DNA from: an uncultured Porphyromonadaceae bacterium
GTDB taxonomy: Bacteria; Bacteroidota; Bacteroidia; Bacteroidales; Muribaculaceae
Length of the DNA stretch: 59,685 nucleotides
NCBI GenBank assembly: GCA_947178215.1
Contig: CAMWXJ010000017.1
Span: 1-59,685 of the forward strand
Direction: 5' to 3'
In this document: positions 4,042-53,197 of the stretch, in pieces
Layout of the letters: every line of letters begins with the position of its first letter
Numbering within the stretch: the stretch's first letter is position 1
Position numbers and translations under genes: made by a program
The notes under the pieces: model-generated
Told to the model about the DNA's origin: nothing
What the model saw: the letters and a program-made list of their open reading frames with translations, nothing else
The model's database searches: none

Positions 4042-6063
4042 TTATTTCAGGGCCTTTGAGCCGCCCTCGTTGGGCCAGTTGATGTTCTGATACATATTGG
4101 AGTTCTCGACCGTGCGGTCAGTCGAACCGGATGTCAGATCAACATAGCCAAGAGGATAGAGATAAAATGCTTCCATCCACTTGTAGCCGTCACGGAGTTC
4201 GTTGGTATTCGACATTGATGCCGAATAAGGACGCACATATTTGCCGAGAGTAGGACTCGATACGGTGCTGTTGGTGCTACCGTCGCTTATGATGCCGTCA
4301 TAGTGCTCATCCTGGTACATCTCGTCCCAGAAGTTTACACCCTCAGGAATCCACTTGGTAGTAATCATGCGGTCAAATGAACGCCAACGGATGAGGTCAG
4401 CCATACGCAGACCCTCGTTGAAGGTCTCGCATACACGCTCACGACGTACGTTGAAGAGGAGAGCCGAAACCATCTCCTGGCCTGAGTATACGCTGAGCTG
4501 AAGCTCCTTGCTCATGTCGGTTGCGGCAACAGTGGCATTGAAGTCGGGATCGACACCCGCGCGGGTGCGGAGCTGACGCCAATAGTCAGAGGCAGTACCG
4601 TCGACATTGCCGGTCTTCTCCACGCATGCCTCCATATAGTTGAGCATAGCCTCGGCAGTGCGGAAGATGGGGCAGGCATTGACACCGAGAATCTGGTCGT
4701 GCCAGGTCTGTGCATAGTCATAAGTATAATACTTGCGTGACTGGTAACCGGTGATGGCACGTGTCTCGGGGAGGTGGTCGTTGATATCAGGCACACCGAA
4801 AGCCATACCGTAATCATCGTTAAAACGGGGATCGGTATACGCGGTAGTGCTTTCGCTCCAGAGGAAGAGCTGTGCGCGATAGTCGCGGTTGACCTTTGTG
4901 GCGTCAATGCTCTTGTCACCCTGATAAAGATTGCTTGCATACCAAGGCTTGCCGTCGGTCATGAGGAAGCCCTCTACGAATGGGCGTGTCATGCCATCGT
5001 TACAGCCAAGAACGGTACGGTAAGGGGCATTGTGCTTAACATTGAGCTCGGCGCTGTATTCTTTCCAGAGAAGTACTTCGTCAACATTGGCGAGAGAAGC
5101 CTGGCTATACATCTCGAAATAGGGGTTGAAGCCTGATATCGACCCGAGAGCAGGCTCAAGCACCCTGTTGTTGGCAGTGAGAGGAGTGCTTCCCACTGCT
5201 ATCTTGGCGGCCGACATGGCTTCGGTGAGGAAGAAGTCGATTTCACCTGCGATGTCGAAGCTCTTTCCCGAGTTGTAGCTCTTGGAAGCGCCGGGCCAGT
5301 TGGAATCGCCGGGCACACGACCGCTACCGCGATGATACTTCTCGAAGGTGGCCTCGAAGAGAGCCACACGCGACTTAAGGAGGGCGGCAGCTTCACGGCT
5401 TATGCGCTGGCCCTTGAATGTGGAGCGCGAATAGCACATGCTGATAGCCTTGTCGAGATCCGACAGGATGAAGCGGGCCACTTCGTTACGGGGAGCACGT
5501 TTGCTATTCTCGACTATCACTTCATCGATATCAGGAAGCACTTCCGTGATAATGGGAGCGTCGCCGTAGAGCGCCAGGATACGGTAGTAGGCCAACGCGC
5601 GGAAGAAGTAGCCTTCACCGATATAATTCCTGATAGCATCGTCGGAACCGGTTATTTCACCGGCCGCATAGTTTTCTTCGGCACGGGTAAGAAAGTTGTT
5701 CCATACTCTAACCAGGGCATAGTAGCTCTGAAGCGACTTGCCATCCGACACCTGCCAGTGGTCGGGAGTGAACAGCGTGGTGCTACCGCCGCCTATGCAA
5801 GCGATATCGGTATTGATGTCGGAACGGTTGAGGCCGTCGTTATAGGCAGCCTGATGATACATCGCGCCGCTGAATGGATTGGCAAGATGAGCGTTATAAT
5901 ATGCGTTGACGTAATTGGCCAACTGATCGGCCGAGCGGTAGTACATGTCAGGAGTGATCTGGGTGATAGGCTCCAGATCAAGCTGATCATTGCATGATGT
6001 CCATGCAGTAGCCGCAAAACCGGTGAGGATGGCAAGTCCGATTTTGGTAATATATGGTTTCAT
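4042..6063 (-). CDS. SusD/RagB-family outer-membrane nutrient-binding lipoprotein
   Basis: A 673-residue SusD-like protein. The signal peptide ends in a lipobox with Cys24 (TSC-ND), so it is predicted to be a lipoprotein exposed on the cell surface. The mature start (DQLDLEPITQITPDMYYRSADQL), the TPR-like helical region with the GEGYFFRALAYYRILALYGDAP segment, and a C-terminal block with RRERVCETFNEGLRMADLIRW are typical of SusD/RagB. It would cap the TonB-dependent receptor encoded 34 bases upstream and capture oligosaccharide or peptide ligands. No glycoside hydrolase, protease or regulator lies next to the pair, so the substrate is unknown. If the receptor is switched off by its frameshift, polarity on this gene is possible. 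Confidence 0.93.
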   Translation of the reverse strand: MKPYITKIGLAILTGFAATAWTSCNDQLDLEPITQITPDMYYRSADQLANYVNAYYNAHLANPFSGAMYHQAAYNDGLNRSDINTDIACIGGGSTTLFTPDHWQVSDGKSLQSYYALVRVWNNFLTRAEENYAAGEITGSDDAIRNYIGEGYFFRALAYYRILALYGDAPIITEVLPDIDEVIVENSKRAPRNEVARFILSDLDKAISMCYSRSTFKGQRISREAAALLKSRVALFEATFEKYHRGSGRVPGDSNWPGASKSYNSGKSFDIAGEIDFFLTEAMSAAKIAVGSTPLTANNRVLEPALGSISGFNPYFEMYSQASLANVDEVLLWKEYSAELNVKHNAPYRTVLGCNDGMTRPFVEGFLMTDGKPWYASNLYQGDKSIDATKVNRDYRAQLFLWSESTTAYTDPRFNDDYGMAFGVPDINDHLPETRAITGYQSRKYYTYDYAQTWHDQILGVNACPIFRTAEAMLNYMEACVEKTGNVDGTASDYWRQLRTRAGVDPDFNATVAATDMSKELQLSVYSGQEMVSALLFNVRRERVCETFNEGLRMADLIRWRSFDRMITTKWIPEGVNFWDEMYQDEHYDGIISDGSTNSTVSSPTLGKYVRPYSASMSNTNELRDGYKWMEAFYLYPLGYVDLTSGSTDRTVENSNMYQNINWPNEGGSKALK

Positions 6064-6097: not shown

Positions 6098-9000
6098 TTA
6101 GAAGCTTACGCTCAGACCAAACGACCATGTGCGCTGGAGAGGATAGAGCTTGCCTGCGCCCCAAGCGCCACCGAGAGTCTCGGGATCAAACACCTTGGAT
6201 ATGCCTGTGCATGTGAAGAGGTTGTCGACCGAAACATATACGCGGCAGTTGGTCATGCCTGCATGATTGATGATACGTGCGGGGAGCGAGTAACCCAGCT
6301 GCATGTTCTTGCAACGGAGATAGGCTGCGTTCTGCTTGTAACGGGTCTGGGTGTAACGGTTCTTGCCCGAATCGAAGTAAGGACGGGGATAGTAGGCGTC
6401 GGTGTTTTCGGGAGTCCAGTAATCAAGGTGCTCCTTGAATACGGTGCTCTGCCACTTGCCGCCTGTTGCGCCCCAGAAATAAGGCTCGCCGCTTCCGAAG
6501 AAGTAGTCGCGCTTCATCACGCCCTGGAAGAATGTCGAGAAGTCAAAGCCGCGCCACTGCACGCCGAGGTTAAGACCGAAGCGATAGCGGGGAGTCGTGT
6601 TGCCGATAACGGTAAGGTCGCCGTGATCGCCGAGAGTGTTGCCACCGTTGTCTACCACACCGTCACCGTTGAGGTCCTTGTACATGATGTCACCGGCGCC
6701 CCAGTTGCTGCCCCAGTTGGGCCTGTTGCTCTCGAGCCACTTGTCCATCTCTTCCTGCGAGTTGGCTATGCCCACTGAGGTGTAGCCCCATACTTCGCCG
6801 TCATAACGTCCGTTGTACCAGTTGTTGAGGCTCTGGTTCTCGAACTCTCCGCTAAAGGGATAGTTGGTCACCTTGGCGCGGCTGTCAGACACGTTGAAGC
6901 GTGCGTTGTAGCTCCACTCGCCTATGTTGTCGTTCCAGCCGATCTCGAATTCCCAACCACGCGAACGCATATCGGTGTTATTGGTCTTGGGAGCGTCGGC
7001 ACCGAGTACAGAACCGAGGATAGGAGCCGGGCCGATCATATCGGTAGTTTTGCGGTCAAACCAGTCAAACGATGCAGTGAGGCGGTTGTTAAAGGCTGCC
7101 ACATCAAAGCCGATATCGACTGTCGTAACAGTTTCCCAGGTCATCATGGTGTTGATGATTGAGGGGAGAGTGGCGCTGTTGCCCTGCTGTCCGTTGATGA
7201 GCCAGCCGCTGTTGTTGACACCTACAGGCTGCTGCTGGTAGAAGGGATACCAGTCCCAGAAGGAGTTGTAGTTGGAGCTTGTGTTACCGAGCTTACCCCA
7301 TGAACCGCGGAGCTTGAGGGTGCTGATGTCCTTGGACAATGACTCGAAGAATGATTCGCGTGCTATGTTCCAGCCGGCCGAGAACGAGGGGAACCATGCC
7401 CAGCGGCGATCGGCGAGGAAGCGCGACGAACCGTCGTAACGGATATTGGCCTCAAAGAGGTAACGACCGGCATAGTCGTAGTTCAGACGGCCGAAGTAAC
7501 CGGCTGTAGCGCGGTGGTTATAGCTGTCGCTGGTACGGAAGTCGGTCTGGGTCTGGTTGAGGAACGGCTTGTCGGGATTGATCATTTTATAACCAGTGCC
7601 TGAGAGACCATCGAGATTATACTTCTCGAAGTTCATACCTACGAGCACCTTTGCATTGTGCTCGCCAAACGAACGGCTGTAGTCGGTGAATATATTGGCA
7701 GCATAGTAGTTGGTGCGGCTGCGCGACTGATAGGCCCATGATGTGGTACCCATACCCGAGTCACGGATAAACGGCTCGTCGTTGCAGTCGTAGTAGCTGA
7801 CGGGGTTCATGCTCTCGGTCGTCTTGCTGTTGCTTACGCGGATAGCGCCGTCGGCAACGATGTTCCAACCTTCGATGGGAGTAAAGGTAAACTTGAGCTG
7901 CTGGGTGAAGTTGTCGCTCGTCTCGTCATGGATACCCATATCTTCAAGCTCCGCGATTTCCATTTCGTTCATCCAACGGCCGTTGGGGTCAATAACCGGA
8001 CAAGTCGGCCAGCGGCGGGCAATGTTATGATAGAACAGACCCGAGAGATAATATGGACGCTCATAGTCCACGCGTGTCCACTTGGTGTTGTATTCAACGC
8101 GAACCCATGGAGCAAGCTGGCTATTGATTTTCGCATTTGTGGTATAGCGGTTGTACTCATCATGGCCGTGACGTATCAGACCATTCTGGAGCAGGTAGCT
8201 GCCGCTGATAAGCCATGTGGTCTTTTCATTACCGCCCGAAAGGCTGATATTGTGCTGGGTCGATGGTACATTCTTCTTGTAGTGTTCAGCAAACCAGTCG
8301 GTATTGGCAAATGCCGAACCGTAGTTGTTCCAGCGTCCGTTGCTGTTGGCGGTAGTACCATAATATTCGGGCTGTGACGGATCGGTAAACTCACCTGCGA
8401 GATACTTCTTGATGTTGACCATCGTCTCATCGCTGTACACGTAGCCACCATTGTCATTATACTGAGCCGCATTGAAATATGTGGCCCATTCAAGAGAGTT
8501 GGCCATATTAGGTACCTGAATGGCGCTGCTGAAGCGCACATCGCCCGAATATGTCACATTTACTTTGCCCTGCTTGCCCTGCTTGGTGGTGATAAGAATA
8601 ACACCGAAGGCCGCGCGCGCACCATAGATTGACGAGGCCGCCGCATCTTTCAGCACTGATACGTTCTCGATATCATTCGGGTTCACCTGGTTGATGTTGC
8701 CCTCGATGCCGTCGATAAGCACAAGAGGATTCGCAACAGAGCCATCACCGATGGTACCTGCGCCACGGATGTTCATGCTCATGCCTGAGTTGAGCTCACC
8801 GCCGCTGTTGGTCACCGACAGGTTGAGGCCCGGAACAGCGCCCTGAAGAGCCTGCTGGACATTAGCAACCGGACGTGACTTGAATACTTTGTCATCGACC
8901 ATTGACACGGCGCCGGTCACGTTTACTTTTTTCTGAACACCATAACCCACAACGACAACTTCATCGAGCGAGTTCATGTTTGACTTCATGACCACATTGA

Positions 9001-9323
9001 GATGAGTGCCGTTCCAGACAACCTTCATCGGATCACAACCTACATAAGTGATTACCAGCGTGGCACCTTTTTTTACGTTCGAGAGAGAGAAGTTACCGTC
9101 AATGTTGGTCGAAGCACCGTTTGTTGTGCCTTGTACCATCACGGATGCACCGATCATCGGCTCACCATCCTCATCGACTACTGTACCTGTGCAGGCGGCC
9201 GCCTGCTCATCAGGTGCGGAAGTGGTGAATTTACCCCCCCCCTATTGCGTCACTTGCCTGAATAGCAGGCTGATACGCCATAGCGGTGGCAACTACCATT
9301 GCCGTCGTAAATAGTTTTTTCAT
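6098..9323 (-). CDS. SusC/RagA-family TonB-dependent receptor, reading frame interrupted at a G9 tract
   Basis: The gene starts at ATG 9323 with a signal peptide (MKKLFTTAMVVATAMA, cleavage probably after AIQA), then reaches nine G residues at 9242-9234 and a TAA directly after them, giving a 30-residue peptide. The rest of the protein lies one frame away: a carboxypeptidase-regulatory-like domain (GTVVDEDGEPMIGASV), the SusC plug signature (LDEVVVVGYGVQKK) and a full beta-barrel to 6098. In that frame a TAG touches the tract, so no upstream start exists; the first ATG (9157) lacks a signal peptide. With eight Gs the protein would be 1074 residues, matching the 1075 of the second SusC in this window. 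Everything else is intact, so a reversible or recent one-base slip, or a sequencing error, fits better than decay. It pairs with the downstream SusD. Confidence 0.92.
9234..9242 (-). repeat. poly-G tract (G9) inside the first susC
   Basis: Nine C on the plus strand, read as nine G in the gene, directly after codon 27 (ATA). Nine puts TAA in frame; eight would restore the full receptor. Apart from the tract at 53188-53197, I found no G or C run longer than six in the window. Confidence 0.95.
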
Positions 9324-9519: not shown

Positions 9520-9535
9520 CCCCCCGTATTTAACA
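9520..9535 (-). promoter_or_regulatory. susC upstream box: TGTTAAAT followed by AC and G6
   Basis: On the minus strand TGTTAAAT (9535-9528) is followed by AC and six G. The second susC has the same TGTTAAAT followed by ten G (53205-53188). In both, exactly 33 bp separate the box from the -33 element. A regulator-binding site is the natural reading, but the protein is unknown. Confidence 0.55.
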
Positions 9536-9740: not shown

Positions 9741-12035
9741 TCAGATTTCAGGCTGGTGGCCGTCGACGGTAGCAGCGTCAAGGGCTGCGATAGTGGCCAT
9801 ATTGACAATATCGCGCACCTTGGCGGAGACGTGGACGAAGTGGGCCGGCTTGTTGAGACCCATCTGAATCGGGCCTATCGACTCGCCCACGCCCATGGCG
9901 AGGAGCCAGCGGTAGGCCGACGAGCCGGCTGTGAGGTTGGGGAAGATGAGGGTGTTGACATCCTTGCCTTTGAGGCGGCTGAAAGGATAGTTGTCGTCGC
10001 GTAGCTTGCGGTCGAGTGCGAAGAGCAGGTTCATCTCGCCGTCAACGGCGAGGTCGGGATATAGCTCGCGCATCTTGCGGGCCACCGACGCCACCATGTC
10101 GGGCTCGGCTTCGCCGGCGGCGCTGCCGAAGTTGGAGTAGCTCACAAGAGCCATTACCGGAGTTGTGGCGAAATACTCCACGCCGTTGCGGGCCAGACGG
10201 GCGATGTCAAAGAGAGTCTCTTCATCAATCTTGCGGTTGACCTGGGTGTCAGCGATGAAGAGCGGGCCCTGCTTGGTCTGTATGATATGGAGCGAGGCAA
10301 AATGCTTGTAGCCGGGGCGTATGCCTATCACTTCTTGGGCTATGCAGCCCGACTGATATGAGGTGGAGTAGGTGCCGCCGAGGAAAGCGTCGGCGTCGCC
10401 GGCATCGACCATAGCCATGCCGAAATAGTTGCGGTCAAACATCTTGTCCTGAGCTTCGAGGAGCTGCATGCCGTCGCGGCCGCGGCGTGCGGCGAGGCGC
10501 TCGGCATAGCGGTGACGGCGGTCGGCCTCGCGGTCATGGCGCAGGTTGACAATCTCTATCCCCTCGATGTCGAGATTGAGGCGCTTGGCGCGCTTGGCAA
10601 TCATCTCCTCGTTGCCGAGCAGCACGGGGATGAAGAGGCCCTGATGCGCTCCGAGCACGGCGGCTTGAAGCATATTGTCGGTATTGGCATCGCCAAACAC
10701 CACACGCTTGGGGTGCTTCTTGGCCTCGTCGGAGATGCGACGCATGATGCGGTTGTCGTAGCCCATGAGCTTACGCAGACGGTCGTAGTAGGCATCCCAG
10801 TCGGCAATCGGGCGACGGGCCACTCCGCTCTCCATGGCGCCGCGGGCCACGGCGGGAGCAACGGTGGTGAGCAACCGCGGGTCAAGCGGCTTGGGGAGAA
10901 TATATCGGGGGCCGAATTCCAGAGTCTCACCCTCGGAGTAGGCGGCGGTGACTACCGGGGGCACCGGCTCCTTGGCGAGGTCGGCGATAGCGTGTACGGC
11001 GGCCAGCTTCATCTCCTCGTTGATAGCGGTAGCGCCACAGTCGAGGGCACCGCGGAATATATAGGGGAAGCCGAGGACGTTGTTTATCTGGTTGGGATAA
11101 TCGCTGCGTCCGGTGGCGAAAATCATGTCGGGGCGTGTAGCTATGGCAAGGTCGTAGGCTATCTCCGGATCAGGGTTGGCAAGAGCGAACACGATAGGCT
11201 TCGGAGCCATTGAGCGGAGCATCTCGGGAGTAACGACATCCTTGACTGAGAGGCCGAGGAACACGTCGGCATCTTTCATCGCTTCGGCGAGGGTGGTTAT
11301 GTCGCGGGTGGTCATAAACTCGCGCTTCTGCTCGTTAAGGTTGCTGCGCGAAGCGTTGATTACGCCCTTGGAGTCGCACATCACGATATTCTCTTTCTTT
11401 ACGCCGAGCTTGACGTAGAGGCGTGTGCAACTAACGGCGGCAGCGCCCGCGCCGTTGACCACGAGGCGTATGTCGCCTATTTTCTTTCCCTGAATTTTGA
11501 GTGCGTTGACGAGGCCGGCGGCCGAGATGATTGCGGTGCCATGCTGGTCGTCGTGCATCACGGGTATGTCACACTCCTCTTTGAGTCGGCGCTCTATCTC
11601 AAAACATTCGGGAGCTTTGATGTCTTCGAGATTAATGCCACCGAACGTCGGCGCGATGGCCTTGACTGTCTGTATGAATTTGTCGGGGTCTTTCTCGGCC
11701 ACTTCGATGTCGAAGCAATCGATACCTGCAAATATCTTGAACAGCAATGCTTTGCCCTCCATGACGGGCTTGCCCGCCTCGGGGCCTATGTCGCCAAGGC
11801 CGAGCACAGCGGTGCCGTTGGATATTACAGCTACAAGATTGCCTTTGTTGGTGTATTCATAGACATCGGCCGGATTAGCCTCTATCTCCTTGCAGGGATA
11901 AGCCACGCCGGGCGAATAGGCCAGTGCGAGGTCATGCTGTGTGGAGTAAGGCTTGGTCGGTACAACTTCGATTTTACCCGGCTTGCCCTCGCGGTGATAT
12001 TCCAGGGCGGCTTCGCGGGATACGGGTGTTGACAT
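9741..12035 (-). CDS. maeB: NADP-dependent malic enzyme with C-terminal phosphotransacetylase-like domain
   Basis: This 764-residue protein has the architecture of MaeB-type enzymes: an N-terminal malic domain (Tyr/Lys-containing [40 protein letters not shown]), a Rossmann domain with GAGAAAVSC near residue 195, and a C-terminal phosphotransacetylase-like domain from about residue 430 ([35 protein letters not shown]). It catalyses oxidative decarboxylation of malate to pyruvate with NADP. In characterised relatives the C-terminal domain is regulatory, responding to acetyl-CoA, rather than a working phosphotransacetylase. The length matches the family. It appears monocistronic. A -7-like TAATTTTG lies at 12076-12069, close to the start. 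Confidence 0.95.
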
Positions 12036-47751: not shown

Positions 47752-49845
47752 TCATTCGGCTGAGCCGAATAGTGCCTCATAACCGGGATTCTGTGTCAGT
47801 TGCGGATTCATGGTGATTTCATAAGTTGGCACCATCCACAGATAGTAGGTGTCGAGCCAGCCCTTGCCGGCCGAAAGCGGGCTCGGGTAGGTAAACATCC
47901 AGCCCTTGCCGGGTGTCTTGCCTTCCGACATGGCATAACCTTCTGATTTGATCTTGTCGTAATCGACATATTCGCCACTGTAGCTACCGGTACCATAAGG
48001 GAAGCTGGAGCCGTCGACCCAGGCTCCGCACGGCTGACGGTTGACGTAATACGGGGCCTTGTGCCAGCGACGGATATCGTAAAAGGCGAATCCCTGGCCC
48101 ATCAGTTCTACCATACGCTCGCGTCGTATCTCCCACAGTACGGGATCAACCTCATAGTTGGTCTTGGCGTCATAGCCACGGGTCCAGGGCGATGTGCCCT
48201 TGTCGCGGTCGGGGTCAAAGTCGGGGCCTATCTCAGCGACTACCATGCGGCCTACACCGGCACGGTCACGCAGCTTGTTGATTGTCTCGTCGGCCACACT
48301 CTGGCTGAACTGACCAAGTTCCCAAGCTGACTCTGCATAATTGAGCAGAACCTCTTCGATGGTGAAAATAGGCTTGTCGGAGGTCTGGAACGATCCGTTG
48401 GAACCCACTTCCCACATTGTGAAATGCTTCCAGAAGTAGTAGCCCGTCAGGCAACGCATATAGTTGTCGGTCTGCGAAGTATTGAGGTTAGGCGAGGAAT
48501 GTACCATCGAGCCGCCCCAGTTGTGACCCGGCAGACGTTTCGATCCGAGGCTCTCGTCGCCGGTACCATTGTCGCAATACACATTGGCGCCGAAATAGTC
48601 GATATAACGGCGGAACTTGGCGGCATACTCCTCATCGATGGTAAACGCACCACCGTTGAGCTTCTCGCCGGGCTGCCAGAAAGTCCACTTCTTGAAAGTA
48701 GTTTCGTTGTCAGGAGCTGCGAAATTGTCTATGCGAGCCTGTGCGGGCGGACAGAAGTTGATGAGCAGTCGAGGGTCACGGTCGGCAAAATAATCATACA
48801 GGTCTTTACCGCGGCCGCCCTCAAAACTTGACGACGCATTGCCGATGGGCTTGCCGTTGGCCATGAGGAACATGTCAACGGTGTGCTGGGGGGCGTCAGC
48901 GCGATGTGCCTCGACATGGATGTAGTCGGAGAAACGATGCATAAGCAGAGTGCCGTATTCCTTGAACATGATTATGCCCGGAACACCGGTAAGGTTTTCG
49001 GTGGTCATTACTTCGTCATATCCGGCACCGGGATATTTGTTGGTGCCTTTGCCATAATACAGCGCCGGATACTTGTCCATAAGCTCACGCGACACACTCA
49101 TGCACTTGCGCAAATAGTCGGCCGAAGGCTCGTCGAGACCGTGATATTTGGCCCATGTTCCTTCGCGGAGGAGGAAACGGCTGAGAGCGGCGCGGCAAGC
49201 GTCGGCGGTAACAGGATTGTCGCCATCCTTGGAGCAGTCGCCTATGTTGGCGATAGCATATTCCAGACGGCTGATAATGCTGTCGGCAACCTCCTTGCGT
49301 GGAGTGCGGGGGCCATAAGCTGCCTCGTCGGTGTCAGACAACACGGTGTTTATCCAGGGCACATCACCATACTTGTTGACGAGCTCCATATACCACCAGG
49401 CGTGGAAGAAGTAGCCTACGGATCTCCAGTGACGGCGCTCGGCATCGGTGAGCTCATTGTCTTCGTCAAGATGGCTCAGCATGATATTGACCGTGCGGAC
49501 AGGGCCGAAGCTCCAGTTGTCGGAATTGGTGGTCGGGGTGATGTTCTGCCAGGCGTAAGGGTTGAGCGAGTTGTCGTTTCGACAAGTCATGATTCCCGAA
49601 TAGAAATCACTGGCCCACTGTGCGTTGCCGTAATAGGTGTTATTGTGGTTGGTCCAGATGATAGTGTTGGTGAACAGCCCGTAGCAGTTATACATATAGC
49701 CCTTGAAGTTATTGTAGGTCTGAAATGCATTCTGCTCTGTAAGGGTTGTGGTGGGATACTTCTCAAGGAAGTCATCGTTACACCCGGTCAAGGCTGCCAG
49801 CGACGCCATCGCCACCACCGGTATGAAGTGTTTGAAGATTTTCAT
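47752..49845 (-). CDS. SusD/RagB-family outer-membrane nutrient-binding lipoprotein
   Basis: A 697-residue SusD-like protein with a signal peptide ending LTGC; Cys22 is the lipidation site and NDDF follows. The mature start (FLEKYPTTTLTEQNAFQTYNNFKGYMYNCYG), the helical VGYFFHAWWYMELVNKYGDVPWI block and the C-terminal EIRRERMVELMGQGFAFYDIRRW are family hallmarks. It is unusually rich in Trp, Tyr and Asn, in keeping with glycan binding. It partners the SusC encoded 25 bases upstream. The divergent sulfatase hints at a sulfated glycan as ligand, but that rests on proximity alone. Confidence 0.94.
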   Translation of the reverse strand: MKIFKHFIPVVAMASLAALTGCNDDFLEKYPTTTLTEQNAFQTYNNFKGYMYNCYGLFTNTIIWTNHNNTYYGNAQWASDFYSGIMTCRNDNSLNPYAWQNITPTTNSDNWSFGPVRTVNIMLSHLDEDNELTDAERRHWRSVGYFFHAWWYMELVNKYGDVPWINTVLSDTDEAAYGPRTPRKEVADSIISRLEYAIANIGDCSKDGDNPVTADACRAALSRFLLREGTWAKYHGLDEPSADYLRKCMSVSRELMDKYPALYYGKGTNKYPGAGYDEVMTTENLTGVPGIIMFKEYGTLLMHRFSDYIHVEAHRADAPQHTVDMFLMANGKPIGNASSSFEGGRGKDLYDYFADRDPRLLINFCPPAQARIDNFAAPDNETTFKKWTFWQPGEKLNGGAFTIDEEYAAKFRRYIDYFGANVYCDNGTGDESLGSKRLPGHNWGGSMVHSSPNLNTSQTDNYMRCLTGYYFWKHFTMWEVGSNGSFQTSDKPIFTIEEVLLNYAESAWELGQFSQSVADETINKLRDRAGVGRMVVAEIGPDFDPDRDKGTSPWTRGYDAKTNYEVDPVLWEIRRERMVELMGQGFAFYDIRRWHKAPYYVNRQPCGAWVDGSSFPYGTGSYSGEYVDYDKIKSEGYAMSEGKTPGKGWMFTYPSPLSAGKGWLDTYYLWMVPTYEITMNPQLTQNPGYEALFGSAE

Positions 49846-49870: not shown

Positions 49871-52800
49871 TTAGAAAGTGATGGAGGCGCCTACCGACCA
49901 AGTGCGGTAGAAGGGATATGTCCAGCTCAGATTCTCAGGGTCATAACCTTTGGGGAGCGAAGTCCAGGTATGAAGGTTCTCGACGCTACCATATATTCGC
50001 AACTGCTTCACTGTGAGCTTTTCAAGCCATTGGGCGGGAAGAGTGTAACCGATAGTTACATTCTTTATGCGCAGATATGAAGCGTCTTGCAGATATTTGT
50101 CTGATGTACGTGCGTTGGAGCCGATATTCTGCTCCTGACCGTAGATGCGGAAGAGCTCGGCATCGGGATTTGCTGCAACCATGAAGTCGGGGCTATCGGG
50201 ATCGTAGCTCTTGGCAGTCCAGTAATCGGTCTGATTGTAATACACGGGCCAGAAAACGCCGTCGGCTCCTGCTGCGGCAAACGGGAAGAGAGCGGCTCCG
50301 CCAATCCAGTAATCACGCTTGCCCACACCTTGCAGTCGGACATCGATATCTATGCCTTTCCAGTTGACACCGAAGTTGGCGCCATATTGATAGCGGGGAG
50401 TAGAGTTGCCTATGACTTTGAGGTCGCCGGGATTGTCGCGGGTATTCTCGCCATTGTTGATGATGCCGTCGCCGTTAAGGTCCTTGAATTTCATGTCGCC
50501 GGGCTTTACGGTATAGCCGAGAATGGAAGGCACGCCTTCCTTAAGTTGCCATGTGCCGCCCTTGGCTTTTTCTATGTCGAAATCGTCAATCGTATAATAG
50601 CCGTCGGCCACATAGCCGTAGATGTCGTTGAGAGGACGCCCCTCAAACCACTGGTTGAGCGAGCCGGTGGCGTTGTTGTATTTCGTCACCTTTGATCTGC
50701 TGTCATACACGTTGACACCCACACGATAGCTCCAGTCACCGATACGATCCTGCCACTGCAGATTAATCTCTATGCCGTCGGTGCGCATGTCGGCGATATT
50801 CTGCAAAGGAGCCGATGCACCAACCGTCGACGGGAGTTCGGAACCGTCGGCGAGCATATCGCTCGTTGAGCGGCGATACCACTCAAACATACCCTGAAGT
50901 CGGTTATTGAACATACGCCAGTCGAGGCCCACATTAAATGTCTTTACTTTTTCCCATGTAAAATTGGCACGTATAAGTCCTGGGACACCTATGAGGGTGA
51001 CCTTTTCGCCATTGTCAAGCCATATGTTAGACTCGCCTACCGCCATCTGTGCCACATACTGGTACGGATCGATTGCCTGATTGCCTATCGAGCCATAGGC
51101 CACACGCGGCTTGAGTTCGTCGAGCCAGCCGCGAGCTCCCTCCATGAATGACTCGCCGGTGATGCGCCATGCGGCCGACACCGAGGGGAAGAAACCGAAG
51201 CGGTTGTTCTTGGGGAATTTCGACGATCCGTCATAGCGGCCGCTCAGCGACAGGAGATAGCGCTCGTCGAAGTTGTAGTTGATACGTCCGAAGCCGCCAC
51301 GGATAGTATACTCGGTGTATGCTTCGGAGATGTTCTTGATGCCGGTGCCTCCACCAAACGACGGAACTGAAGGAACTGCCTGCCCCTGGATATTGGCGTT
51401 GAGGGTCGACTGTGAATAACGTTCCTGATTATAGCCGGCCATGGCGGTGATGTTGTGCTTCTCGGCTATCTTCACAGAATAGTTGGTGTAGATATTGAGG
51501 GCATTGTATTTGCGCACCCACTGGTTTGCATAATAGGTGTCTTTGGTCGGATCGGTCGGCGATGTCTTCTGTGCAAGCTGCACATCGGCATAGCTCAGGA
51601 TACCCTGATAATACTTGGTGTTATAGTCGGTCTGGTTGTAGGTATACTCGCCCGTCACGGTCCAATCTTTCATCAGTTTAAGGATGGAGCGTATCTGGAT
51701 GCGCGGTATCGAATAGTTGTTATCGCCGGTAGGCGCGAGCATGTAGGAGTTATATGGCGAATCGATAGGAAGGTCGACACTGCTGTTGGAGAGATACTCG
51801 GCTGGCATATCGCCTTTGACAGGATACCAGTTGATGAGACGGGTAGCATACGGGTCACGTATCGTATTGGCAAGGAAAGTATTGCTGCGCTGGGTGTAGA
51901 ACATAGATAGTTCCTGGGTCCACCATGACGTCACGTCGCCCGATACAAACGAGCTTATCGATTTGCGCCGGAACAAATCCTTGTCGGTGATAAGCGGGCC
52001 GTTTTCACGCGAGTAGTTGGCCGCCATGCGGAAACGTATGCGGTCGGTTCCGCCCTGCATTGCTACGTTATGGTTGCTGAGTGCGCCGGTGCCGAGAATA
52101 CTGCCCTGCACATCGCTTTCTTTGAGATAATAGATACGACCGTCGGTGTGGCGGTAGATACCGTTGTCGGTCACACCTTCGAGGGTACCGGCACGATATT
52201 GGCCCAGCAATTCCTTCCAGGTCGACACACTGCCGTCGCCGGCCCAGTACTGGCTCGAATACCCGGCTTCTTCGTAAGCCGCAATATAATTTTCAAGCGA
52301 CGTCTGCTCGGGACGGTTGATGGAGCGCTCCCAGCCCTGATTGAAGCTGTAAGTAAGCGAGAATTTAGCATCCTTATTGGGGCGCTTGGTGGTGATGAGT
52401 ATTACGCCGCCGGCGGCTCGGGCACCATATATGGCCGAGGAAGCCGCGTCTTTAAGTACTGTGACACTCTCGATGTCGTCGGGTGAAAGCTGGCTGAAAT
52501 CACCTTCCACATTGTCGATAAGCACTAGCGGACCGCCACCGTTGAGCGAGAGCGTACCGCGAATCTGGAGATTTTTGGCCTGACCGGGCGATGAACCACC
52601 GGATACGTAGAGGCCGGGGATAGCTCCCTGAAGAGCGGCTGCTGCATTGACCACAGGACGATCGCCGAGAACCTCCTCCATTTTTACCTGAGACACGGCG
52701 CCGGTAAGGTCGGCTTTCTTCTGTACGCCGAAGCCTATCACCACAACCTCGTCAAGGTCATTGACATTTGATGTGAGAGTCACCGACAGCGGCTCGCCTT

Positions 52801-53098
52801 CCCATACTACCTCGACCGGCTTACACCCTATGTAAGAAATGCGCAGGGTAGCGCCCTTTTTGACATTGGGAATGCTGAATTTACCGTCGATGTTGGTACC
52901 TGCACCGGTAGCGGTTCCGGCGACTATTACAGACGCCCCGATCAGTGGTTCGCCTGATTCGTCGAACACTGTGCCAGTGCACGTTCCCTGATCAGCGGGA
53001 GGCGACTGAATCTCAGTCGTAGATGCAGTAGCGGTGACATGGTAGGCGGGTGCTGTAAGCACACAAGCCAATAATGCTCTTGTTACTACTTTGTTCAT
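49871..53098 (-). CDS. SusC/RagA-family TonB-dependent receptor
   Basis: An intact 1075-residue outer-membrane receptor. A signal peptide (about residues 1-25) is followed by a carboxypeptidase-regulatory-like domain (GTVFDESGEPLIGASVIVAGTATGAGTNIDGKF region, about 40-105), the SusC signature with TonB-box character (LDEVVVIGFGVQKKADLTGAVSQV), a plug domain (VLKDAASSAIYGARAAGGVILITTK) and a 22-strand-type barrel. The barrel holds a long NGDGIINNGENTRDNPGDLKVIG insertion. It imports the substrate captured by the downstream SusD using TonB energy. Its promoter has a G10 tract between an upstream TGTTAAAT box and the -33 element, and the start lies about 28 nt from the inferred transcription start. 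Confidence 0.96.
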   Translation of the reverse strand: MNKVVTRALLACVLTAPAYHVTATASTTEIQSPPADQGTCTGTVFDESGEPLIGASVIVAGTATGAGTNIDGKFSIPNVKKGATLRISYIGCKPVEVVWEGEPLSVTLTSNVNDLDEVVVIGFGVQKKADLTGAVSQVKMEEVLGDRPVVNAAAALQGAIPGLYVSGGSSPGQAKNLQIRGTLSLNGGGPLVLIDNVEGDFSQLSPDDIESVTVLKDAASSAIYGARAAGGVILITTKRPNKDAKFSLTYSFNQGWERSINRPEQTSLENYIAAYEEAGYSSQYWAGDGSVSTWKELLGQYRAGTLEGVTDNGIYRHTDGRIYYLKESDVQGSILGTGALSNHNVAMQGGTDRIRFRMAANYSRENGPLITDKDLFRRKSISSFVSGDVTSWWTQELSMFYTQRSNTFLANTIRDPYATRLINWYPVKGDMPAEYLSNSSVDLPIDSPYNSYMLAPTGDNNYSIPRIQIRSILKLMKDWTVTGEYTYNQTDYNTKYYQGILSYADVQLAQKTSPTDPTKDTYYANQWVRKYNALNIYTNYSVKIAEKHNITAMAGYNQERYSQSTLNANIQGQAVPSVPSFGGGTGIKNISEAYTEYTIRGGFGRINYNFDERYLLSLSGRYDGSSKFPKNNRFGFFPSVSAAWRITGESFMEGARGWLDELKPRVAYGSIGNQAIDPYQYVAQMAVGESNIWLDNGEKVTLIGVPGLIRANFTWEKVKTFNVGLDWRMFNNRLQGMFEWYRRSTSDMLADGSELPSTVGASAPLQNIADMRTDGIEINLQWQDRIGDWSYRVGVNVYDSRSKVTKYNNATGSLNQWFEGRPLNDIYGYVADGYYTIDDFDIEKAKGGTWQLKEGVPSILGYTVKPGDMKFKDLNGDGIINNGENTRDNPGDLKVIGNSTPRYQYGANFGVNWKGIDIDVRLQGVGKRDYWIGGAALFPFAAAGADGVFWPVYYNQTDYWTAKSYDPDSPDFMVAANPDAELFRIYGQEQNIGSNARTSDKYLQDASYLRIKNVTIGYTLPAQWLEKLTVKQLRIYGSVENLHTWTSLPKGYDPENLSWTYPFYRTWSVGASITF

Positions 53099-53132: not shown

Positions 53133-53164
53133 CAAAATTAATAAAAATAAACGATTTTTACAAG
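53133..53164 (-). promoter_or_regulatory. promoter of the second susC (-33 CTTG, -7 TAATTTTG)
   Basis: CTTG at 53164-53161 and TAATTTTG at 53140-53133 are 20 bp apart. The -7 box matches TAnnTTTG fully. Confidence 0.7.
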
Positions 53165-53187: not shown

Positions 53188-53197
53188 CCCCCCCCCC
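53188..53197 (-). repeat. poly-G tract (G10) upstream of the second susC promoter
   Basis: Ten G on the minus strand, directly after TGTTAAAT (53205-53198) and 23 bp before the -33 element. It is the longest G/C homopolymer I found in the window. Confidence 0.95.

Follow-up and report, generated by a model that had tools for sequence, protein, structure and literature searches.

A G9 tract in the start of a SusC-type receptor gene as a probable slipped-strand switch, and related poly-G tracts at SusC genes of the same genus

DNA inversion is the usual explanation for stochastic receptor choice in gut Bacteroidota, and in the fim promoters of Bordetella pertussis a poly-C tract between the activator site and the -10 region changes spacing. 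Poly-G switching itself is known in other bacteria, with passages of PMC3786947 and PMC8355987 describing poly-G/C contingency loci of Neisseria (HmbR, HpuAB), Campylobacter and Helicobacter. At sabA of Helicobacter pylori, an intergenic T-tract in the promoter lies near the core promoter, and its length shifts the alignment with upstream elements and hence the output (passages of PMC4081817). An ON/OFF switch by replication slippage in a gut commensal is described for a pilus of Bifidobacterium breve in passages of PMC9187656. Invertase-driven phase variation of SusC/SusD in Bacteroides fragilis (Nakayama-Imaohji 2009) is cited in PMC11868660, a review of which the matched passages mention, for Bacteroides, invertases only. 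Passages of PMC11868660, PMC2831843 and PMC3711429 were matched by terms within the same literature search on G tracts, and among the best open-access matches (subscription papers and preprints lay outside its scope) this search found none on G tracts of SusC genes in Bacteroidales or of other surface genes in Bacteroidota.

Both full-length SusC genes of the window, which is the whole stretch of 59,685 nucleotides that was analysed, carry a G tract, gene 1 as G9 in its coding start and gene 2 as G10 upstream. In gene 1, which like all window features described here lies on the minus strand, positions 9242-9234 are exactly nine G (9234..9242) in the signal-peptide region, and a TAA comes next at 9233-9231. 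The frame that starts at ATG 9323 consists of 30 signal-peptide-like residues, MKKLFTTAMVVATAMAYQPAIQASDAIGGG, and terminates at this TAA directly 3' of the tract (9231..9323), as an earlier note on this DNA had described. The SusC frame is closed upstream by a TAG at 9244-9242 that shares its last base with the first G of the tract, and a frame scan found no ATG in it before 9157, in line with the claim of that note that no other start could rescue it. Its arithmetic also holds, because 9323 - 9157 is 166, a multiple of three plus one, and the predicted 1074 residues after deletion of one G are consistent with the 1075 aa of the intact paralogue.

Beyond the tract, the 3' piece (6098..9193) has 1047 open codons with zero stops and matches the SusC/RagA model TIGR04056 at 6101-9193 with 888.5 bits against a cut-off of 368.25, covering model positions 3-981 of 981. 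With its carboxypeptidase-regulatory-like, plug and barrel domains (PF13715, PF07715 and PF00593) and an adjoining SusD gene (4042..6063; PF07980, PF14322), gene 1 is a SusC/RagA family TonB-dependent outer-membrane receptor, and its product is placed at the surface because of this family membership (TIGR04056, PF00593, PF07715, SusD partner). The earlier note was thus right to call the SusC of the other frame otherwise intact, and the further disabling mutations that it had named as a reason to abandon its reading were looked for downstream, where the receptor frame is intact and has no stop. As is typical of a phase-variable locus, the tract separates the start of an otherwise intact gene from a body that is read in a different frame. 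Around 200 bp 5' of ATG 9323, a G6 run (9520..9525) follows TTAAATAC, possibly as a shortened or vestigial promoter tract. The gene directly upstream of gene 1 (9741-12035, minus strand), a malic enzyme fused to a phosphate acetyltransferase domain, looks ordinary.

The second SusC gene (49871..53098) is intact with 1075 aa and has its own SusD partner (47752..49845). Its G10 tract (53188..53197) lies 90 bp upstream, is putatively of promoter type and is followed by TG, not TA. The predicted promoter of this gene (53133..53163) comprises TTG at 53163-53161, a 20-nt spacer and TAATTTTG at 53140-53133, and an exact TAnnTTTG is found 47 nt after the tract. We take TAnnTTTG to be the Bacteroidota -7 element and presume a -33/-7 consensus for this promoter.

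The genome from which the window comes (here G000; 2,547,048 bases in 48 contigs) has 24 SusC genes above the family cut-off, drawn from 37 matches after exclusion of 13 weaker or partial ones. Ten of these 24 full-length genes carry a sense-oriented G8-10 in the 450 bp that precede the SusC model, at distances of 49-418 nt from the model start, and no G7 or longer was found within 700 bp of the remaining 14 (for the one on C36, in only ~230 bp of upstream DNA). Across the whole genome there are 25 distinct tracts of G8 or longer, of which 22 were used after removal of two junk-like ones (G25 and G10, end of C27) and C45:253-260; 10 of the 22 fall at SusC starts, compared to 0.047 expected with uniform placement (P 1e-21, or P 9e-12 if an assumed tenfold G-run richness of such DNA is allowed). 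Like in phase-variable loci, a simple repeat is therefore present in the gene or promoter of 10/24 SusC genes beyond chance. Runs of C8 or longer in antisense orientation near SusC genes of this genome are the sense tracts of divergent SusC neighbours. The ten tracts are split into six upstream and four intragenic ones, the latter located in signal-peptide codons and in frame at C2:121497, C11:39528 and C3:25394, with that of the window out of frame. TA follows 16/22 tracts of the genome versus 77/1345 G4-5 runs.

Tracts away from SusC genes were also inspected in this genome. Seven of the 12 non-SusC tracts likewise have TA next, and a scan of five of these seven found no exact -7 box within 60 nt. 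One locus (L017) that had been considered a second intragenic out-of-frame gene was dropped, since its downstream frame is without family match and an AMP-binding gene lies on the opposite strand. Upstream of each of two DUF3575 genes, at a distance of 130-270 bp, lies a G/C run of nine bases (L017:6032-6040 and L023:6035-6043), in antisense orientation and in a GGGTAAAA context. A C9 run (L016:6028-6036, corresponding to G000:C4:89827-89835) lies inside an intact gene of the UDP-glucose/GDP-mannose dehydrogenase family (PF03721, PF00984, PF03720) and is a candidate frame switch of a surface polysaccharide gene that is in frame here. A hybrid two-component regulator of 1351 aa and an ABC transporter gene diverge at L010:5999-6007, where G9TAG lies either at their starts or in between. 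The G25 and other G-rich runs at the start of contig C27 (L026:63-117) probably stem from a sequencing artefact.

For a census of the genus, the 24 SusC genes of G000 were combined with 59 from six same-genus genomes (99% completeness; SusC matches with E 1e-100 or better). G7-10 tracts are found at 33 of these 83 genes, 25 of them upstream and eight intragenic, where upstream DNA is uninformative (<10 bp) on G008:C5, G030:C20 and G030:C22 and short on G004:C44 (~300 bp) and G000:C36 (~230 bp). Tracts of G8 or longer within 450 bp occur at 29/83 genes over the seven genomes: 10/24 in G000, 8/14 in G008, 5/9 in G028, 3/7 in G005, 3/10 in G030 and none in G024 (0/12) or G004 (0/7). The feature is therefore not uniform across the genus, with two of seven genomes devoid of G8 at any SusC gene, and G024 has a G7 at one of its 12. 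Since G004 has 81 tract ends of G8 or longer genome-wide and none at its seven SusC genes, the association with SusC does not follow from tract abundance alone. In a count over 101 genomes, GGGGGGGGTA was found 16 times in G000 compared to 5 for the reversed control and was not in excess in G004 (13 vs 13). We also inspected the SusC loci of 29 named relatives among 53 fetched; within 500 bp ahead of the match (less DNA in some), a run of at least G6 is missing from 25 and present in four. These four are Isolate-104 of the same genus with a G7, Tannerella forsythia (L037) with G11 followed by TA 445 bp before the SusC match, Phocaeicola abscessus (L041) with G12 and a start piece in a different frame from SusC, and an Alistipes MAG (L045) with two G9 runs that lack a following TA, one lying within the gene.

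The 25 upstream tracts of the census share an architecture. TA directly follows the tract in 18/25, TTAA repeats peak ~19 and ~9 bases before it and hence 10 bp apart, and an exact TAnnTTTG starts 18-20 nt past the tract in 11/25, compared to a mean of 0.075 and a maximum of 2 in 2000 single-base shuffles, a figure that overstates independence because the distance was noticed before testing and the 25 rows include paralogues. Another five have TAnnTTTG 38-41 nt past the tract, and in the other nine it is elsewhere or absent within 60 nt. If TAnnTTTG acts as the -7 element, the tract would coincide with the -33 position, directly precede it or be two helical turns farther away. As in promoter-spacing switches of the sabA and fim type, the upstream tracts at 18-20 and 38-41 nt keep a constrained distance from the presumed core promoter.

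All eight intragenic tracts of the census (G8-9) are placed towards the end of the signal peptide and precede the SusC model by 48-67 nt; five are in frame with SusC and three out of frame, and none of the latter has a stop inside the receptor. In each of the eight and in P. abscessus, the ATG-led piece enters the tract in exactly one frame, which is that of SusC in five cases and not in the other four. Two G028 paralogues with alike signal peptides show both states: C22:42217 has G9 and is in frame, and C9:44197 has G8 and is out of frame. Tract placement is not the same within three sister pairs: the intragenic tract of window gene 1 is paired with an upstream G7 in its 72% orthologue G028:C33:60050, the upstream G10 of window gene 2 with the intragenic G9 of G028:C22:42217, and the intragenic tract of G028:C9:44197 with an upstream one at G008:C12:154458. 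In a quick tree of 74 of the 83 SusC proteins, calculated from full sequences with SH-aLRT support only and leaving out nine proteins whose genes showed no tract, the eight intragenic rows need eight separate changes and are no more scattered than shuffled labels (mean 7.7). The upstream rows are somewhat clustered, with 16 changes versus a shuffled mean of 21.1 and a value as low in 5/500 shuffles.

Differences in tract length were found between similar copies, all of which are paralogues, orthologues or repeats and not strains of the same species. Two paralogue upstream regions of G008 that are 89% identical over 328 bp have G9 and G8, respectively, and two paralogue starts of G028 that are 78.5% identical over 186 bp have G8 and G9. 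Five repeat copies in G088, a genome of another family (L210, L211, L213, L214 and L216), have G8 in two cases and G9 in three; they are 99.1-99.7% identical over ~300 bp in the listed pairs, and several are near contig ends. MutS is present in 6/6 genomes tested, which rules out a loss of mismatch repair that would raise slippage. A 17-base probe gave no match in viral contigs. Inverted repeats with arms of at least 14 nt were sought around the two window tracts, and one weak pair was found at each: 14 nt long, 665 nt apart and with an arm inside the gene in the 1.0 kb at gene 1, and 16 nt long, 81% AT-rich and flanking G10 in the 0.7 kb at gene 2. No strong inverted repeat that would point to an inverton was found in these 1.0 and 0.7 kb at this arm length.

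Outside the genus and outside SusC, the pattern is patchy. The strict form GGGGGGGTA-N15-18-TAnnTTTGC was searched in 198 genomes of the order, with G000 included and G008, G028, G030 and G040 lying outside these 198, and it occurs at 19 places in five genomes and not at all in its reversed control. It is absent from G000 itself, and G008, G028, G030 and G040 hold sites with tract and TAnnTTTG. With the strict pattern in only 5/198 genomes, we rejected a module present across the whole order. Eleven of the 19 places are in G185, a genome of another family with tract lengths of only G7-8, where the genes behind ten places start alike, are lipoprotein-like and end this start in ATSCQ. Five of these ten were run in Pfam and all match DUF6562; the eleventh gene has no Pfam match, and seven G185 genes searched in NCBIfam gave no match. 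With similar flanks, tract lengths range over G7-10 in the genus and G7-12 in the order.

In G040, a genome of the same family, we inspected 20 of 21 GGGGGGGGTA places and found none at a SusC start by the SusC profile. An exact TAnnTTTG lies 18-20 nt after the tract at five of these 20 loci, with near-misses at 22-28 nt, and the genes behind those tracts encode Big_2/LRR (Ig-like), LRR, PD40, SusD-like, Fn3-associated and DUF3575 proteins, with two lacking a Pfam match. A reading confined to SusC is therefore too narrow, as promoter-type tracts of G040 precede other protein families instead. The same genome has three G9-10 TA tracts spaced ~1.1 kb apart (L224-L226, G040:C11:210200-215490), two of them with flanks 84.6% identical, and a scan of the DNA behind them gave no frame that reaches 80 aa. 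A TA after the tract was also rejected as proof of a universal signature: in 16 regions of G088 some of the TA-followed tracts belong to GGGTACCC-like repeats and no SusC has one, and at four of eight places in G067 one tract lies within a frame with a weak SusC-profile match (L221) and none at a SusC start.

How should the out-of-frame start of gene 1 be interpreted? Homopolymers are error-prone, the out-of-frame allele is known from a single assembly and C27 begins with an artefact-like G25 run, so an assembly or sequencing error could still mean that gene 1 is simply in frame here. We consider it very unlikely that such an error is all there is and that no switch exists, because separate genes and assemblies have G runs at this same position and a wrong length would not make a slippery tract at 10/24 SusC starts. 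That a one-way frameshift has turned the receptor into a pseudogene would fit the start being out of frame in this assembly, and yet it seems highly improbable given 1047 open codons without a stop, an intact SusD and a lesion exactly at a type of tract that sister genes repeatedly carry in frame. Polymerases and ribosomes can slip on long G runs, and the stop directly after the tract would suit transcriptional slippage or ribosomal frameshifting on G9 that yields some full-length receptor, with the tract setting a level and no OFF state. Five of eight census homologues are in frame, however, which is unexpected for programmed recoding, and upstream tracts cannot act this way, making recoding an improbable explanation.

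For the upstream tracts alone, G run and TTAA(C) repeats might form a fixed operator for a regulator, so that length would be no switch. Strong common flanks with TA after the tract in 18/25 and the TTAA(C) spacing speak for an operator, as do the narrow G7-8 lengths of G185 and the TA after 7/12 non-SusC tracts of G000 that pure slippage leaves unexplained. Against this stand tract lengths that vary despite similar flanks, from G7 to G10 within the genus and from G7 to G12 within the order, and the three sister pairs that swap upstream and intragenic placement, since an operator has no reason to become a coding tract, and overall we regard a fixed operator as unlikely.

With a probability of roughly 0.77, we therefore favor the reading that the G9 tract switches a SusC-type nutrient receptor ON and OFF by strand slippage and is caught OFF here, and that it belongs to a set of poly-G tracts at many SusC genes of the genus. 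Sequence, frames, enrichment and orientation, common architecture and recurrence in independent assemblies are direct observations for this set, and gene 1 seems best regarded as one out-of-frame gene within a SusC repertoire switched by poly-G tracts. Counting against this reading are the two of seven genomes devoid of G8 at SusC, with no excess of GGGGGGGGTA in G004, the 25 of 29 inspected relatives' loci that lack G6 or longer, the presence of MutS and a scatter of the intragenic rows no greater than that of shuffled labels. Replication slippage would change the length of G9 and shift the signal peptide into or out of the receptor's frame, and tracts in signal-peptide codons, as part of a G7-10 set at many SusC genes of this Muribaculaceae-type genus, would constitute a translational switch. 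Upstream tracts, located between TTAA(C) repeats and the -7 box, would presumably form a transcriptional switch in which a length change alters how an upstream element and RNA polymerase are spaced or how the DNA between them is shaped, by analogy to sabA and fim. On this model, tract length should change often and reversibly in living populations, and the upstream tracts should affect transcription, with SusD partner and nutrient uptake following. The earlier note was right on the sequence and is most likely right on the mechanism: its proposal of translational phase variation is supported by the comparison and has a larger scope than it assumed, with "translational" only partly apt because it fits gene 1 and some of the set, and most tracts sit upstream, resembling promoter switches.

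A broader reading would be a poly-G module shared by gut Bacteroidales that switches many surface receptors, lipoproteins and adhesin-like proteins independently of one another and that, in SusC lineages, moves between promoter and signal-peptide codons. As part of the same joint reading, which we propose tentatively and at slightly less than even odds, its layout would be TTAA(C) repeats 10 bp apart, G7-12, TA, ~15-18 nt and TAnnTTTG, and each cell would get a random subset of its nutrient receptors. For the set at SusC genes, if true, our reading would imply a second, inversion-free system acting on SusC receptors that is invisible to inverton finders and of which the tracts could be misread as frameshift errors or pseudogenes. 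Cells would then be predicted to differ in glycan uptake and perhaps also in phage sensitivity.

Compared to the fim promoters of Bordetella pertussis, regulator, phylum and box are different. The sabA rheostat is similar in having an intergenic homopolymer near the core promoter (passages of PMC4081817), though the upstream tracts are made of G instead of T, precede the TAnnTTTG box by 18-20 or 38-41 nt and have a predicted effect. The slippage switch of Bifidobacterium breve, as far as described in passages of PMC9187656, is from another phylum and concerns pilus genes and no receptor repertoire. SusC/SusD inversion in Bacteroides fragilis, judging from the passages of PMC11868660 that cite it, switches the same receptor class stochastically, yet it does so by DNA inversion, whereas the two window tracts have one weak inverted-repeat pair each. 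The poly-G loci of Neisseria, Campylobacter and Helicobacter (passages of PMC3786947 and PMC8355987) share the principle of a G tract in or near a gene for a surface or uptake receptor whose length switches the gene. In contrast to these, the putative switch reported here concerns SusC/SusD systems of a Bacteroidota genus and differs in placement between orthologues, one having the tract in its promoter and another in its signal-peptide codons.
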